A DNA stretch of 64,000 nt from Cokeromyces recurvatus (taxonomy: Eukaryota > Mucoromycota > Mucoromycetes > Mucorales > Mucoraceae), in assembly GCF_025118155.1 (NCBI RefSeq), contig NW_026251400.1:434001-498000 (forward strand), in the 5' to 3' direction. Positions 6,684-59,090 of this stretch are shown piece by piece. The notes under the pieces were generated by a model that was not told where the DNA came from, made no database searches, and was given only the letters and a program-made list of their open reading frames with translations. Numbering within the stretch: the first letter of the stretch is position 1; each line of letters begins with the position of its first letter. The position numbers and the translations under genes are program-made.

Positions 6684-9600
6684 CTAAACATGATTATTTT
6701 GAAGAATACTTTCTATACATGCATTAATATAATCTTTTCTAGACGCCATTGATACACCAAAAATATGTTGAAGTTCTTCACGGACTTGTTTTTTAGTAAT
6801 CTTGTTGAGATCTGCTTCTTCTAAAATGCGTTGAACCTCAACTAGAATCTCTTCATTCTTGGGTCCAAAGTTATCCCCTATCGTAAAGCCATCCATTTTT
6901 AGGGATTGACTACTATCTACATGAGCCGGCGATTGCATAGGAATATATTGACTAGGTAATAGATTATCATAGGACTGTGCAGGTGCAAATGTTGCCATGG
7001 ATCGACTAGCTGGAAGCATTGACGTACTATTCGTATATGGCATCATAGGCATAGATGTAGAAGAAGGGACAAGAACACTTTGACGGTCAGCTGGGTTACT
7101 CGTAACCATTGGATATTGGAGCATCCCTGAAGAATACATACTCATATTATCTAAGCTACCTAAAGCCCCAGCCAATGGATTATTATTGTGAGTGGAATAA
7201 GATGTTATGTTATTAATCGTACGATTTCCACTTTGACGACTATGATGCGTGTAGGCACTACTACTTCCTTGAGACAAATTATCACTCCAATGATCCTCTG
7301 ATAGTAAAGCGCGTTCATATTCGGACCATTTCATGGTAGGAATTGATTTAGGGTCAAATGTACCTTCATCAGCAGCGACTGCAACCTTTTTACCTTTCTC
7401 ACCTACAACAACACGTGTATTACCCCATGAGAAATCATCAAAATGCCAGTAGGCATAAACTGGAATATAAAAGGAAAAGACTGGAAGAGCAAAGATTGAG
7501 ACAATCAACCACATTATAAACTCCCAACGACCTTTTATAATAAATAGTAATGCTTGAAGACCATAGGTACCAGCAATAGTTGCAACTGAAATAATTGGAA
7601 TATTACCATCTGAGGTAGCCAACGTATAGATTAAATATCCCAAGTAACCCAGGAGGGCAGGCATGACCAATGTACTCACCAAGTCCAGCATAACAATAAA
7701 ACGCATCGAGAAACAACAGAAACCACATAGACGAGGCAAAAATACAAGTTCACCCAAGTTATGGATGGTGGAGTTAATCCAACGACGACGTTGTGAGACA
7801 AGAATACTCCAGAGGTCAGGGGCATTGGTTTTACAATGTGCATCAGGGTTAAATTTTGTCTTAAAATTAGAAAAATGCTTCAAAAGTAAAGTTGTCAAAT
7901 ATCTATCTTCGCCGAGATGTAAAAGATTCTTTTTATGCAAGGTGTCCACAATATTGACTGAATAATCATCAATAATTTCATTACTACAGAATAAGGCTCG
8001 TTTCCCATCTACTGTTCGTATACGATACATAGTAAAGCAACCTGGTAAACAACTTACAGTAGAAAATAGGGATTCAAATGACTTAATTAAATGATGAGAT
8101 ATAAAATATTCATAGACTTGAATCATCGTGACCCACGTATCCTTTTCATTTTGTAATGTTGTTTCTCCACAGATACCAATAATCTTAGAATCATGCACGG
8201 CACTAGAGACTAGATAATTAAGACCATCACGCATTACTTCCGTATCAGCGTCGACCATAAGTACGAATTCATAAAAATTAGGACTTATACCAATAATGTT
8301 TTTCATTTGATGATATATCTCCAATTGAAGAGGATTCATGGGAGCATCATAATGAATACGATTTAGGAACTGCATTAATACTAATTGAGAGTCCCGTTTA
8401 CCACGATTACCAGGCTTTTGGCGTTCACGAGGATGACCACATTTAACAACAACTATATAAGGTACAACATGACCTGAAACCTCGTACAGACCTGAATAAA
8501 TCTTACCCATGTTATGCTGCTTCATACCTTCTCCAACAGATACAAATGATAGAGCCTCTGGGTCTACTTGTGAATCGACACCCAAGATGTTGAGCACGAT
8601 ACGAGGGGTAGGTAAATCATTACCACTACCAACAATCATTCCGTCACAAATCACAAAGAGTAGTTTACGTTTATCATCATAGTTCAAGGTAGCTAAAGAA
8701 TCAATCGTCTTTCGAAGTGATTCTTCGTCTTCTGTGTAACATGTTACCTGACAAATAACAAACTTATCATGCTCTTCAGGATCACGTTTACCACCAATAC
8801 GAATGGCTGCCATAAATTTGAATAGAATGACAGAGGACAATAATAAGGTAACAATGAGCAGCATGTAGGTCGAAAATTGACATTTGGTTGAATTTCTTGA
8901 ATCCAAAAAGCCTACAAAGAAAAGATTACGAAGGCAGACTAATTCACGTTCACGAGAAGCAGCATTAAGAGATAATTTATAAAAATCTTTTGTAATGTCT
9001 GATCCTGCCTTTTGCTGAAAAAGGCTTACAACCTCTTGGGACAAGAAATCTGTGTTGATATCTGTTGGTATGTCTTCTCCAGGGGGTCCACGTAGGTAGC
9101 GACCACCCAATGTATATGAGGTTAAATCATAAATATGGTTATCAATAACAGCCCAAGTACGTAACGTCCTGATGCCATTTATAGTAGTTGGTGTCTTGGC
9201 TTGATCAGAGATGGCCTTGTATTCATAACCCAAATGGCCAACTTTGTAATTTTTACGTAAGAGAGTCATTTGATCATAGTACCAATTTGGATTATATGAG
9301 TCAGAAGAATATCTAAAGTCATGATATTGGCCATTCGTATCAGTCAAATTAACTTGATAATCAACAGAGACATAAGGTGAAATGGGCGTACCATCTACAC
9401 CCTCACAAAGAGCAGAGACTTGAACAGGGAAAAGATTAGTTATATCCTGACCAGCATATTGCATAACAATAGATGTAGGTACAAGATTAGCAGGATAATG
9501 TCGCGGTGCAAATTTCTTCAAATCAAAGACCTCACCACGAATGGCAACATATGCAGTTTCAGCATCTACATTATGACTTTGCAACTCTGCATTTGAAAAA

Positions 9601-12204
9601 ATATGCTGCTTAGGGCAAACAATTTCACCAAAAAAGACCAAAAACCAAATGACAAAGGCACACATTAAAAAAATAATTATGCATAATGTGACTTTTTCAC
9701 GCCATGCAATGCGAACATCTTTTCTCTTCATTCGACCACACCATATAAGGAATTTGGATGGAATCCACCAGGTTGCAAAATAAACAAAGAATAACCACCG
9801 TTTACGAGCACCCGTCATTTTTGTCTCATCTTCTTCGTTTGCATTTAAATTTTCTTCAACTGTTTCTTTAGGAACACCAAGTGGATTCTTTTGTTCAGAA
9901 TATACATAAGACTCTGATCCAAAGTAAGAACCTTCTTCTTTTTCCACGTACTGCCCTGAGTCTTCTTCAGAATAATAAGATGCTTGATCATCTCTGTGTG
10001 AAAAATATTGTGAAGGAAGAGGAAGACCAGCTGCGGCTGCAGTGGCTGCAAATGGATGAACTTGTTGGTGTTGATCTTTTTCAGCATTTGTATCGATGTT
10101 ACTATTATTTTGACTTTCTTTAGCTTGATGTTGTTCAATTTTTTCATTATAACGTACTTGATCTTCTAATTCTCTCCAAGCCAATACACTTAAAAATATC
10201 TATATTATATACATATACATATATATAACGGATAAGGATTTAATCTTATATATATATATATATATACATATATATCCATATAATATGTATGATGAATAAT
10301 GAATGTATAATAGATTTTTACCCTATTCTGAGAAATACACATATCATTTGTGGTCCAATTCATTATTTTACATATAGCATCACATTGTGATCGAGTTAAA
10401 CGAGTTTTATCTAGTTCATTAAATAAATATGAATATCGTTCTAGAAATTCTCGATGCGGATACGATTCTATATATTGAATTGAGGGTAAAGATGATATGG
10501 ATACAATCTTCATTTGTTCAAGTTGGTGAGCAACATATTGAGAATCAAATGTATTTTTAGTAGTATTCGACTGTTTAGGCAAGATACAGAAAACAATCCA
10601 CAGTTTTACTTCTTCAAATGATTGAATAAGTTCATCCATAGCAGATTGTATCTGTTGTAAAACAGTGATAAATGTTGAAGAATCTGATGAGTCCTTCTTT
10701 TCTAACAAATAATCATCTTTCTTACGAGTTGAGCGACGCTGTGAGGGCTTACGAGTAGGCTTAGCTGATTGTTGAGCCCCAATAATAGCTGAATCATGTT
10801 TTGGATGACTTTCTAGTTTTACATTTGCAAACATTTCTACAATAAAAGAATTCCATGAAGGCTGTACATCTAATCCACCCTTAAATAAGGATACAAAATC
10901 CACAGATATTTGGTTGTTGTTTTTGACAATAAAATTTTGAGTTGAATACTGTACAGGGCTTGAACCATTATAATGCTGAATGACAAAACTACGACTATTA
11001 GTCTCTGTATTTGTGACAGAAAATGCAGGATGTGATGTATTGTACTTTATAAGTGAGTCCATTATATTATCATCTGTATAGTTACGCTTAGAGGTATCTG
11101 TCATTGTATTAATCAAATTGCAAATGCCTCTACTAGAACGAGTAAGGAGATCTATACAACTTCCATCAACAGTGAATTCAGGGACTTGTACTCCTTCAGC
11201 TTGAAGAATCTCAGTCTCTTTTATAAATATATTTTGTTCGAGGTAATATTGAATACGCTCATTCATCAAATTGACGCAAAACTGATCAAAACCTGCTATT
11301 ATGTTGTTATTTTGCTGAAGGCCGGGAAAATCTAGAACTCCAATAAAACTATTAAAGTCATCTGTGCAAATTCGATTATTGATGCGTTCAATAATCCAAG
11401 AGAACAACAAGGAATAGAGTGTTTGGCATAGATTATCACGTTGGACAGAGGCTTGTTCAGCATTCAATATAAGTGTGGTGAAATCTTTACGAATCATGGT
11501 TGTCTTGAATGTCAAAACATTTTCTAAAGCACGGGGATCAAGCCCCAAGAAATCTGCTACTATCTCTAAAAGTTCAACATTCTTTACAAAAGCTGCCTCT
11601 TGTGTACCGGTACCAGGAGGGTCAACAAACACGAGGTTACCAAGATGAAGAATAGTAGCCACAAGCTGAATAATTCTTACTATATGCTCCTTTCGAAACC
11701 CACATATTTTTAAAGCTGATTTGAGTTGCTCAAAACGTAATGCATCCTCTTCATTATGGCGCTTTTTATATTTTGCCAAATATTGAAAAGAAGAAGGATC
11801 TGAATTGGTAATCTGAAGTGCTGTCTTTTCCTCTGGTGATATGCCATTCAATAAATAATAAAATATATTGAAGTTACCATCAGTTAATGACTGTCCAGTG
11901 ACACGGGATTTTTCCAAAAAATAATGTAGAGTCTTTGCACCTACCATACGACCACGTTCATTGAATTGAATTTCAACATAATAACCAAAGCGAGACGATT
12001 CTGATATATTACTTTCGGATTCTCCAAAGGCATCAAATATCTTTTGCGATTCTATAATTTGTGTTTGAACCTTTGATTCCTTTTTATGACTACTAAGTCG
12101 TACCAAATGCCGGATACTTAATTTACGGATTTCGGACTTTCCACTGCCAGATTCCCCTCTAAAGTAAAAGAGAATGAATATTTATTTCCATTTTTGCTTT
12201 TTTC

Positions 12205-54215: not shown

Positions 54216-55711
54216 TTAATATTCTTCAGCATCTTCAATTTCGGAATCACCAAGGGAGTCAGAACCAACTTCCTCATAATCCTTTTCAAGGGCAGCCAAA
54301 TCTTCACGAGCTTCAGAGAATTCACCTTCTTCCATACCTTCACCAACATACCAATGAACGAAAGCACGCTTGGCATACATCAAATCAAACTTGTGATCAA
54401 GACGTGCCCAAGCTTCAGCAATGGCAGTTGTGTTAGACAACATACAAAGAGCACGTTGAACGGTGGCAAGATCACCACCAGGGACAGCAGCAGGGGCACG
54501 ACAGTTAATACCCACCTTGAAACCAGTAGGACACCAATCTACGAATTGAATAGTACGCTTGGTCTTGATGGTTGAAATAGCAGCGTTTGTGTCCTTAGGG
54601 ACGACATCACCACGATACAATAAACAACAAGACATGTATTTACCATGACGTGGGTCACACTTAACCATTTGATTGTTAGGTTCGAAACAAGCATTGGTAA
54701 TTTCTTGAACAGAGAGTTGTTCATGATAAGCCTTGGCAGAAGAAATGATAGGTGCATAAGTAACCAAGGGGAAGTGAATACGAGGATAAGGAACCAAGTT
54801 GGTTTGGAATTCATTCAAATCGACATTCAAAGAACCATCAAAACGTAAAGAAGCAGTAATAGAAGAGACAACTTGAGCAATCAAACGGTTCAAGTTGGTA
54901 TAAGAGGGACGCTCAATATCCAAATTACGACGACAGATATCATAGATAGCTTCATTATCCACCATGAAAGAGACATCAGAGTGTTCCAATGTAGTGTGAG
55001 TAGTCAAGATAGAGTTGTAAGGTTCAACAACAGAGGTAGCAACTTGAGGTGCAGGGTAAATTGAGAACTCAAGTTTGGATTTTTTACCATAATCAACGGA
55101 CAAACGTTCCATCAACAAGGCACCAAAACCAGAACCGGTACCACCACCAAAGGAGTGGAAGACCAAGAAACCTTGAAGACCAGTACAGTTATCGGCCAAT
55201 TTACGAATACGATCCAAAACGGAATCAACCAATTCTTTACCAACAGTGTAATGACCACGAGCGTAATTGTTAGCAGCATCTTCCTTACCAGTAATCAATT
55301 GTTCTATTTTTTTTTTCAGAGAAAAAGAAAGAGGGGGGAGGTTATTAAGGAAAGAAAAAAAAAAGGGGGATGAAGGGAAAGGGAAATTATTGGGAGTAAA
55401 ACAAATAAAAAAAAAAATAAAATAAAATAAAAATGATGAATGAACTTACCAGGATGGAACAAGTTATGATAAGGACCAGTACGAACTTCATCAACGACAG
55501 TAGGTTCTAAATCTACCATAACAGTACGAGGAACATGCTTACCAGCACTAGTTTCACTAAAGAAGGTATCGAAAGAGTTGTCACCAGTATTGAGTTCATC
55601 GGGAATACAACCATCAGGTTGAATACCATGTTCAAGACAATAAAGTTCCCAACAGGCATTACCAATTTGGACACCAGCTTGACCAACGTGAATTGAAATA
55701 ACTTCTCTCAT
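54216..55711 (-). CDS. TUB1: Alpha-tubulin
   Basis: This is the microtubule subunit that pairs with beta-tubulin. Exon 1 (55711-55451) starts [20 protein letters not shown], which is alpha- and not beta-tubulin (beta begins MREIVHLQ). It joins at [16 protein letters not shown] over an intron (55450 to about 55303, GTAAGT donor). The nucleotide-binding motif GGGTGSGFG is intact. [20 protein letters not shown], the alpha-type [14 protein letters not shown] stretch and the C-terminus [13 protein letters not shown] are present. The final EEY fits detyrosination cycling and CAP-Gly binding. About 447 residues, the standard length. GC-rich codon use points to high expression. The gene is tail-to-tail with NUF2. 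Confidence 0.97.
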
Positions 55712-56688
55712 TTTTGTTTAATAAAAAAAAATAAAGGGGGTTTAACAAGTTGTTTTATTCTAAAGTTAAGGAAGAATAAACCAACAAAAATTAAAGGTTT
55801 AGTTGAAAAAAAAAAAAAGAAACTGAGGGGATAATTTAAGAAAAAATTATTTTTATAAGGTTAAAAAAAAAAAAAATCTCAATTAATTATATTTAATAAA
55901 CGCACCAATCAAATCGTTATTAAATTAAAACACGAGGAACAACAGAAGTCTGAATTATATGAATAAAATAAAATGTTAACATTGCTAAACCTATCAAAAA
56001 CGGTTAAATATGTATAACAGTGGAAGACATCTCTCCTTTGTTCATTTTATATACTAAGAATGATTTTATCAGATCATATATTTTATTAGGATATAAAAAA
56101 CCATCCTTTCTCTCGTAGTTAAAAATTGAAAGCAGTTGCAACATTAATAAAGTATTTATATATTTGAAAATAAATAAATAAATAAATAAATAAAAGGCAA
56201 CTATTATTCATAGTCCTCATGCTTACTTGATCTTACGATATTTATATTCTTTCGTAAATAGTGACCAAAGAGAACCTTTACTATATATGTAAATACGGTC
56301 CTATTCTATCCTTCCTTCCATCTATGTATGCTTCAAACAACTACACTTCTTAGATACGATGAGGTCGATGGCACTAAAGTCTTGTCTATTAGGTTATTTC
56401 ACTATTTACTTATTTTAGTGACTCTTTTTTACTCATCTTCACAACTTATTCTGGTGTCCCTCATTGATGATTATATCACTTTACTAGTTAGAGGAGAATG
56501 ACTTACCCTCATATTATTGGTATTAGCCATTTTTGTATGCTGACTTTAAATGTCACATACTTGTGTCGTCTTTTTTTTTTATTTTATTTTTCACAAGCAT
56601 GATTTCTTATTTTATTTTTTTTCATTCTTTTCTGTACATTGTTTTTATGATATCTAATTCACCATTACCCAATATATCTCAATGCTCC
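55712..56688. other. Promoter side of alpha-tubulin and upstream of a small gene
   Basis: No gene with support. A runs occur near 55806-55819 and 55863-55876, and AAAT units near 56166-56193. The hydrophobic frame starting at 56533 extends the small gene upstream but reads as AT/T-rich chance sequence. Confidence 0.5.
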
Positions 56689-57063
56689 ATGGCTAGTATC
56701 TTTCAAGAAATGTTCAGTAAAAGTTTTAAATCATACAAATCAATAAAAGATAATCATCATAATGAAGAAGAAGGAAGCGATTTTAAACGATTGATCCAAA
56801 AACACAAGAAATTAAGCAGCAGCAGTAGCAGCAGCAGCAGCCAATCTTTGATAAAAGTAGAACACAAAAAAGGTGAATACCATCAAGATTCACCAGACTT
56901 TAGACCCATTGTGTATTTGAATAATACAACAAGCCAGCAACGTACAACTTTTGTTAGTTCTCTATATAATTACTTTTTTCAACATGAAGATAGATACTTT
57001 AATCATGACCGAGAAGAGCTTAGTAAAGATATCTTTCCAACCGGACATAAACAAACATATTGA
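56689..57063 (+). CDS. Small hypothetical protein
   Basis: An intron-free frame starting at the ATG at 56689 gives 124 residues: MASIFQEMFSKSFKSYKSIK, a poly-Ser run (AGC codons, about 56815-56840), then QDSPDFRPIVYLNNTTSQQR and SSLYNYFFQHEDRYFNHDRE, ending FPTGHKQTY. The frame extends upstream to 56533, but that part is T-rich. Base composition is more gene-like than the flanks. No family was recognised. It could also be an exon of a larger gene or a chance frame. Confidence 0.4.
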   Translation: MASIFQEMFSKSFKSYKSIKDNHHNEEEGSDFKRLIQKHKKLSSSSSSSSSQSLIKVEHKKGEYHQDSPDFRPIVYLNNTTSQQRTTFVSSLYNYFFQHEDRYFNHDREELSKDIFPTGHKQTY

Positions 57064-57824: not shown

Positions 57825-59090
57825 TCATAGAACTTGGGAAATAGAACTTGTAGGAGAAGCTAATACTAAAGTATCTTTCAAATGGTGAATATCTTCATCA
57901 CTCGAGGTCTTTGAAGTAGATGCATTTGTTTCTTTCATAGAAATAGGGGAAATCATATTTGTATTATCATCATTTGTACTACTAGTATCTGTTCTATTAT
58001 TGCGTATTTTCTTTTTAAAAGTACGAGTACTACTACCAGCATCTATACGAGGACTTGAAGTTTCCTTGAATTTTAGCTTTTCATTATAAATCATGATATC
58101 ACCTCCTCTAGGCTTATGTTTAACATTATCTAATGATCTAACCTTCGATTTGATCTCCTTTGATTTAATAAAGGACGCTTTATCATCATATATCTTCACT
58201 TCTCCTCCTCCTGGCTTATGTCTTATATTGTCCTTTGAACCCACCTTTGAACAAATCTGTTTGGATTTAATAAACGCTGCTTTGTCATCGAAAATCATTA
58301 CTTGTCCACCTCCTGATTTATGTTTCACATTCTCCATTGACCCAACTTTTGATGTTGCCTTTGTTTCAATACGTTGTTTGAGAATCGTCACTCTCTCATC
58401 AAAGATCTTTTTTCTCGTACCACCTGTTGGCTTATAATTTATGTTTTCAAATGAACCAATCTTAGACTTCACATGACTACTTGATGAGTTTACATGTATA
58501 TTATTAGTAATTAGGAAGAAGAGGAGTAGAGGAGAGGGGAGGGTAAATAAGTATAATATATACATGTATTTATTTACACTAACACATTTTTTTTTTTTTA
58601 CCTAAAATCAGTTTTAGCAGAAACAGGTGGAGGTGGAGATGCCATAAGGGTTCTACGAGTAACATAACTACTAACTGAGGGTCTTGAATGGAGTGGGTTT
58701 TGTGTAATTGCAGTTGTAGGAGAAGAAGGGGAGGAATCTAAATAAAATAAAATATGAATTAAAACTCAGGCATAATAATAAAATGATTGGCTTTTTTGGG
58801 CGCCATTATTTCAAGACTTCAAAATAAATAAATAAATTACCTGCAATCTCCTCCTCCTCCTCCTTCTTCTTCTTTTTTATATCATTCTTTTGACTTTTCT
58901 CAATGATCTCTGATGAATTAGAAGATCCCTTCTTTTTCGTCGTATTTTTCATTTTGAGGACTGAGTTATGATGTGTAGTCTCTGAAGAGGATAGAGAACC
59001 TTTACGTATCGTTGTGGGCGTCATTTTCAATTCAATGCTTGATTTGCGTGGATTTACTTTTAGTGTTGCTGTTGTAGTCAATGGAACCAT
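57825..59090 (-). CDS. Tau/MAP-type microtubule-binding repeat protein
   Basis: Three exons give about 350 residues. Exon 1 (59090 to about 58842) starts MVPLTTTATLKVNPRKSSIE, is Ser/Thr/Lys-rich and ends in poly-K/E. Exon 2 (about 58740-58602) has PSVSSYVTRRTLMASPPPPV. Exon 3 (about 58475-57825) holds four repeats of about 30-35 residues: KIGSFENINYKPTGGTRKKI, KVGSMENVKHKSGGGQVMIF, KVGSKDNIRHKPGGGEVKIY and KVRSLDNVKHKPRGGDIMIY, with flanks such as DDKAAFIKSK and LKFKETSS. The consensus KxGSxxNxxHxPGGG is that of the tubulin-binding repeats of tau, MAP2 and MAP4. The tail is Ser/Thr-rich and probably disordered. The gene lies about 2 kb from alpha-tubulin. Microtubule binding is inferred from the repeats and not shown. 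Confidence 0.88.

Follow-up and report, generated by a model that had tools for sequence, protein, structure and literature searches.

Tau is a nerve-cell protein of animals, known from Alzheimer's disease. It belongs with MAP2 and MAP4, whose N-terminal projection domains are much longer, to a family of proteins with several repeats in tandem, each about 31 residues long, and a pseudo-repeat after the last repeat as a further family feature; in vertebrate tau, the repeats are spread over several exons. Tau has been studied almost only in animals, and a fungal relative with four repeats would offer a simple genetic setting in which to study the ancestral job of such a protein.

The tau-type repeat domain is shared by MAP2 and MAP4 (PMC4815063). 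Sundermann et al. 2016 (PMC4815063) include the "fungus Rhizopus delemar" in their figure of the family and single it out as distinct among the nonvertebrate architectures; the nonvertebrate members were left as an outgroup in the tree of that year. The main text of PMC4815063 mentions fungi at one place only, the one naming Rhizopus delemar. Among open-licence PMC papers, PMC4815063 alone contains "Rhizopus delemar", "tau" and "microtubule-binding" together, and the open-licence PMC matches listed included none that deals with how a fungal tau-type MAP functions; subscription journals are mostly not represented in that collection. Passages of PMC8778642 (where MAP2 stands for methionine aminopeptidase) and PMC3280300 contained nothing on fungal tau, and the same was true of the best 12 of 29 places in PMC13406575. 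A pattern was matched by 244 stretches of viral contigs and by 585 of prokaryote contigs, none of which encodes a relative, as expected of collections that do not include fungi.

Structure of the tau-like gene

The window analyzed here is a stretch of 64,000 nucleotides from Cokeromyces recurvatus. It spans 434001-498000 on contig 6 of a genome assembly that totals 28.05 Mb in 64 contigs. A tau-like gene is located on its minus strand (Table 1). The predicted structure of three exons and two introns is supported, exons 1 and 2 having been placed by the GT-AG rules and the open frame. The coordinates, the two introns with GT-AG ends and the location of all four repeats in exon 3 agree with the model proposed in the first-pass annotation. 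Exon 1 begins with the ATG and then encodes a low-complexity N-terminus rich in Ser, Thr and Lys; the protein as a whole is Ser/Thr/Lys-rich and poor in hydrophobic residues outside the repeats, and its chain is probably disordered.

The acceptor of intron 2 is a tandem NAGNAG (AAGTAG, 58476-58479) situated just before repeat 1. Exon 3 may thus start at 58476 or 58479, and the predicted product would be 345 or 346 aa long, the two forms being one serine apart. If intron 2 were retained, the exon 2 frame would stop at once (...KTDFR, 58598), giving a short protein without repeats.

Table 1. Positions in the window of the tau-like gene, its exons, introns and repeat cores, and the neighboring alpha-tubulin gene. 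Residues are numbered in the 345-aa form.
Feature	Position	Strand	Description	Basis
Tau-like gene	57825..59090	-	ATG at 59090, stop codon ending at 57825; three exons	Splice model
Exon 1	58841..59090	-	Residues 1-83 and first base of 84	Splice model
Intron 1	58738..58840	-	103 bases, GT...TTTAG	GT-AG rule only
Exon 2	58602..58737	-	Pro/Ser-rich, precedes repeats; about residues 84-129	Splice model
Intron 2	58477..58601	-	125 bases, GT...AAGTAG	GT-AG rule only
Exon 3	57825..58476	-	Four repeats (residues 130-267, 58062-58475), C-terminal tail, stop	PF00418, PDB phmmer
Repeat 1 core	58419..58466	-	Residues 133-148, SKIGSFENINYKPTGG	Per-repeat profile match in genome search
Repeat 2 core	58305..58352	-	Residues 171-186, SKVGSMENVKHKSGGG	Per-repeat profile match in genome search
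Repeat 3 core	58203..58250	-	Residues 205-220, SKVGSKDNIRHKPGGG	Per-repeat profile match in genome search
Repeat 4 core	58101..58148	-	Residues 239-254, SKVRSLDNVKHKPRGG	Per-repeat profile match in genome search
Alpha-tubulin gene	54216..55711	-	2 exons seen; presumed binding partner; 2113 bases downstream of the tau-like gene, to the start codon	

Four tau-type repeats in the predicted protein

We compared the spliced protein with Pfam-A by hmmscan. PF00418 was the single family obtained up to E 1, and it was matched over four stretches with E 4.8e-37 and 126 bits, where the cut-off is 27. This search had been set beforehand as one of two tests that could refute the first-pass identification of a tau/MAP2/MAP4-type protein, and the identification held. 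When the unspliced genome was searched, each of the four repeats alone also exceeded the Pfam cut-off, with scores from 30.7 to 39.7 bits. PF00418 was found in none of five controls, made from residues 125-267 by shuffling four times and reversing once; in two of these a single chance family appeared, with E 0.087 in one and 0.26 in the other, under the cut-off of the family concerned. NCBIfam returned just two GroES models, far under cut-off. When the protein was compared with the PDB by phmmer, all 48 distinct sequences with E <= 0.001 were named tau or tau filament, and no MAP2 or MAP4 chain was among them. Among the alignments listed, those to 7pqc_O, 8ttl_A and 8wcp_A ran from the proline-rich segment through repeat 4, and those to 7pqc_O and 8ttl_A extended past repeat 4, including the KLxFxE at its end. 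The gene is best explained as one for a structural microtubule-associated protein, a fungal representative of the tau/MAP2/MAP4 family; we assign this reading a probability of roughly 0.88 on sequence evidence. If it is correct, the tau-type repeat family is not confined to animals.

The protein had been described as carrying four copies of KxGSxxNxxHxPGGG spaced by about 30-35 residues. Four repeats are indeed present, but the strict motif is matched by repeat 3 only: in repeat 1, H is replaced by Y and the turn is PTGG, repeat 2 has SGGG, and repeat 4 has KVRS and PRGG. The glycine turn that ends the repeat cores therefore reads PTGG, SGGG, PGGG and PRGG in repeats 1 to 4, PGGG being intact in one of four. 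Two of the spacings (34 and 34 residues) fall in the proposed range and the first (38) does not; the corresponding values in tau chain 8ttl_A are 31, 31 and 32. The repeat region (residues 129-267) has a net charge of +17, and repeats 1 to 4 share 10, 11, 13 and 10 of 17 residues, respectively, with their best tau partners.

One-to-one orthology of the four repeats with tau R1-R4 was considered and rejected, since the colinear pairing was not favored, ranking 12, 15 and 15 of 24 pairings with three window sizes. With these ranks the order of the four repeats is not demonstrably ancestral, and we dropped that idea; because the repeats do not pair one-to-one with those of tau, the fungal protein and tau may have come to four repeats independently of each other.

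Regions flanking the repeats

Residues 83-128 consist of 17% Pro and 35% Ser/Thr and have a net charge of +2, a composition that resembles the proline-rich region of tau. This segment aligned to tau only within the longer match; taken alone with the N-terminus, it had no tau match, the N-terminal 128 residues giving two chance rows in the PDB up to E 10. The C-terminal tail alone yielded no tau among the best 60 of 68 PDB rows. These 60 matches were nearly all protein G or fusions, with E 0.047 or worse, and were taken as chance.

We also analyzed the position of the pseudo-repeat. Over a 22-residue stretch that includes the end of repeat 4, 22 of 20000 shuffles were equally good, but past repeat 4 the similarity to tau was marginal (1596 of 50000 shuffles equally good), and the pseudo-repeat was accordingly dropped as independent evidence.

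Tubulin contacts and the KXGS serines

In a cryo-EM model, the tau residues contacting tubulin include S258, K259, I260, S262, K267 and H299 (PMC6692637). Our comparison covered these six positions, with the histidine of H299 corresponding to H268 in tau repeat 1. Equivalents of S258, K259 and S262 are each present in all four fungal repeats, and I260 is represented by I or V in all four. The K267 equivalent is K or R in three repeats and N in repeat 1, and the histidine is found in three repeats, with Y in repeat 1. Because the anchor pattern contains S, K, I/V and S, the counts at those positions restate the search, the letters themselves being plain in the sequence. On the tubulin side, Y262, I265, E420, E423, D424, E434 and V435 are identical (7/7) between the neighboring fungal alpha-tubulin and the aligned PDB chain; since alpha-tubulin is highly conserved, this identity shows compatibility, not specificity.

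We propose that successive repeats would line up end to end on a protofilament, with every repeat centred on a single alpha-tubulin at the inter-dimer interface. The Ser-Lys-Ile/Val residues and the KXGS serine would be placed at helix H12 and the basic residues at the acidic tails, with the basic and proline-rich flanks contributing affinity. A protein bound in this manner may stabilize the long hyphal microtubules.

Repeats 1-3 contain KXGS, and in repeat 4 the sequence is KVRS. Phosphorylation of tau S262 by MARK has been reported to lower binding, and in an isolated tau R1 peptide S262 phosphorylation leaves affinity unchanged (PMC6692637). Four KA1-domain loci were found in the Cokeromyces genome, two of which (L013 and L014) are Kin1-like by eye. 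L013 was the locus compared with the PDB, and its sole match was the MARK1 structure 3ose, with E 6.7e-5 and no single stretch passing alone. A Kin1/MARK-type kinase may phosphorylate the KXGS serines, and it is probably by this modification that the protein would be released from microtubules.

The tau hexapeptides VQIINK and VQIVYK come after glycine turns (PMC6692637). In the fungal protein, the glycine turns of repeats 2 to 4 are followed by QVMIFDD, EVKIYDD and DIMIYNE, which occupy the positions of the PHF6 motifs in tau.

Constraint on the repeats and genomic context

Between the repeat copies, pS was higher than pN in 6/6 pairs, both in 30-codon blocks (pS 0.62-0.80, pN 0.21-0.47) and in 21-codon blocks (pS 0.49-0.75, pN 0.24-0.41), where pair 1-3 was close (0.49 vs 0.41). 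This result fits a translated, constrained frame. The same codon was used at 36 of 80 identical residue pairs, and most synonymous distances were near saturation, so the repeat duplications are old. The GC3 of the tau-like gene was 0.269, compared with 0.162-0.337 in eight other genes or exons of the window, and the gene is native in composition. PF00418 together with the repeat region was found at one locus, in a search that scored only the best candidates of an assembly that may be incomplete.

Both the tau-like gene and the alpha-tubulin gene are on the minus strand, separated by 2113 bases. By a rough count (3 kb either side, two alpha-tubulin genes, 28 Mb), such closeness would arise by chance about 4 times in 10000; the linkage was noticed post hoc, and the figure would be higher if any tubulin gene were counted. 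The proximity of the two genes is a lead on co-regulation. Between them is an open frame with a serine run (56527-57063, plus strand) that has no Pfam match. A second alpha-tubulin, 92% identical, is present on the same contig (C6:386972-388063). A further tubulin there (C6:429501-430559), 40% identical and probably a beta-tubulin, precedes the start of the window by about 3.4 kb. A divergent tubulin-like gene, possibly a gamma-tubulin with introns, is represented by two neighboring pieces (L011 and L012, G000:C25:280379-281346) that have 38% and 25% identity to alpha-tubulin; one of them has an in-frame TAG inside the match.

On the other side of the tau-like gene, from 59380 on, is a V/A-type ATPase subunit with domains PF22919 and PF00006, interpreted here as V-ATPase subunit B. 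Frames for myosin head and chitin synthase, next to each other at 6684-12181, mark a filamentous fungus. CotH (PF08757), whose expansion is typical of Mucorales, is expanded in this genome, with 19 matches, 17 of them over cut-off, on contigs 5, 6, 8, 13, 14, 16, 34 and 56. Tektin and IFT57 had no match in the genome and, likewise, none over cut-off in the control genomes, hence these negatives are weak. Together with the myosin-head and chitin synthase frames and the CotH matches, they point to an early-diverging fungus without flagella, probably a mucoralean. A scan for bacterial-type promoters gave 9 sites vs 10.6 in shuffles and has no bearing on a fungus.

Role and origin of the gene

The protein may bind microtubules and yet have its main task in mitosis or in cargo linking instead of lattice stabilization, a role that is compatible with family membership and that we consider somewhat unlikely. 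Neither the N-terminal 128 residues nor the C-terminal tail (among the best 60 of 68 rows) matched tau when searched alone, and such termini could recruit a partner unknown in animals; on the other hand, no Pfam domain besides PF00418 was found in the protein.

Family membership is equally compatible with a horizontal transfer, in which the repeats would be homologous to those of tau and the gene would have passed from an animal into an ancestor of the fungus instead of descending from the opisthokont ancestor. According to the first-pass annotation, the family is described almost entirely from animals and yeasts lack it; this statement would favor such an event, as would the fact that Rhizopus delemar is the one fungal name found in print (PMC4815063). 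That name also makes a second fungal record in print, which speaks against transfer together with a GC3 within the range of the neighbors, synonymous sites between repeats near saturation and the two introns of the gene. These points still leave room for an old transfer, and on balance we regard transfer as improbable.

The first-pass annotation had also offered convergence, whereby the four repeats would have arisen independently on a tubulin-binding motif, unrelated to tau by descent. The repeats are short with few fixed residues, nothing outside them matches tau by itself (for the tail, among the best 60 of 68 rows) and they do not pair colinearly with the tau repeats. By contrast, the identities with the best tau partners, the proline-rich segment that precedes the repeats as in tau and an alignment that takes in the KLxFxE with which repeat 4 ends all argue for descent, and the PF00418 score renders convergence very improbable. 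Likewise very improbable is a wrong gene model, a pseudogene or an assembly contaminant: exons 1 and 2 do come from GT-AG rules and an open frame, but the repeat exon is open with constraint between its copies, the composition is native, the neighbors of the gene in the window are a V/A-type ATPase subunit, alpha-tubulin and a myosin-head and chitin synthase pair, and the contig extends to base 498000 or beyond.

Membership in the tau/MAP2/MAP4 family is thus the reading that we retain, and the gene bears on the origin of that family. An ancestral opisthokont MAP is something that we infer rather than observe, because the four repeats are not paired one-to-one with the tau repeats. As a tentative scenario, the common ancestor of animals and fungi might already have possessed a multi-repeat tau-type MAP with a KXGS phosphoswitch, which hyphal early-diverging fungi would have kept beside alpha-tubulin and yeasts would have lost; QVMIFDD, EVKIYDD and DIMIYNE might then allow tau-type binding and aggregation to be studied in a fungus, outside neurons. 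The fungal gene lets one ask if the KXGS switch is older than neurons and if the aggregation-prone segments are of ancient origin. It is of interest for this evolutionary question and for its linkage to an alpha-tubulin gene.

Comparison with known tau-type proteins

The protein had been put forward as a notable fungal member of the family. As judged from its predicted product, the Cokeromyces gene is a real tau-family MAP gene; its novelty is weaker than had been thought, since Rhizopus delemar already appears in the family figure of PMC4815063 and the gene is not the first fungal member in print. The Rhizopus delemar protein, as presented there, is likewise fungal with tau-type repeats, and its orthology with the Cokeromyces gene is presumed.

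Compared with tau (MAPT) of vertebrates, the fungal protein differs in the spacing of its repeats (38/34/34 vs 31/31/32), in having an intact PGGG in one repeat only, in N- and C-termini that have no match (for the C-terminal tail, among the best 60 of 68 rows) and in a gene structure where all repeats lie within one exon. It has in common with tau four PF00418 repeats that follow a segment of similar, proline-rich composition, a basic repeat region, most of the residues that contact tubulin, the KLxFxE end of repeat 4 and, in three of its four repeats, the KXGS serines.
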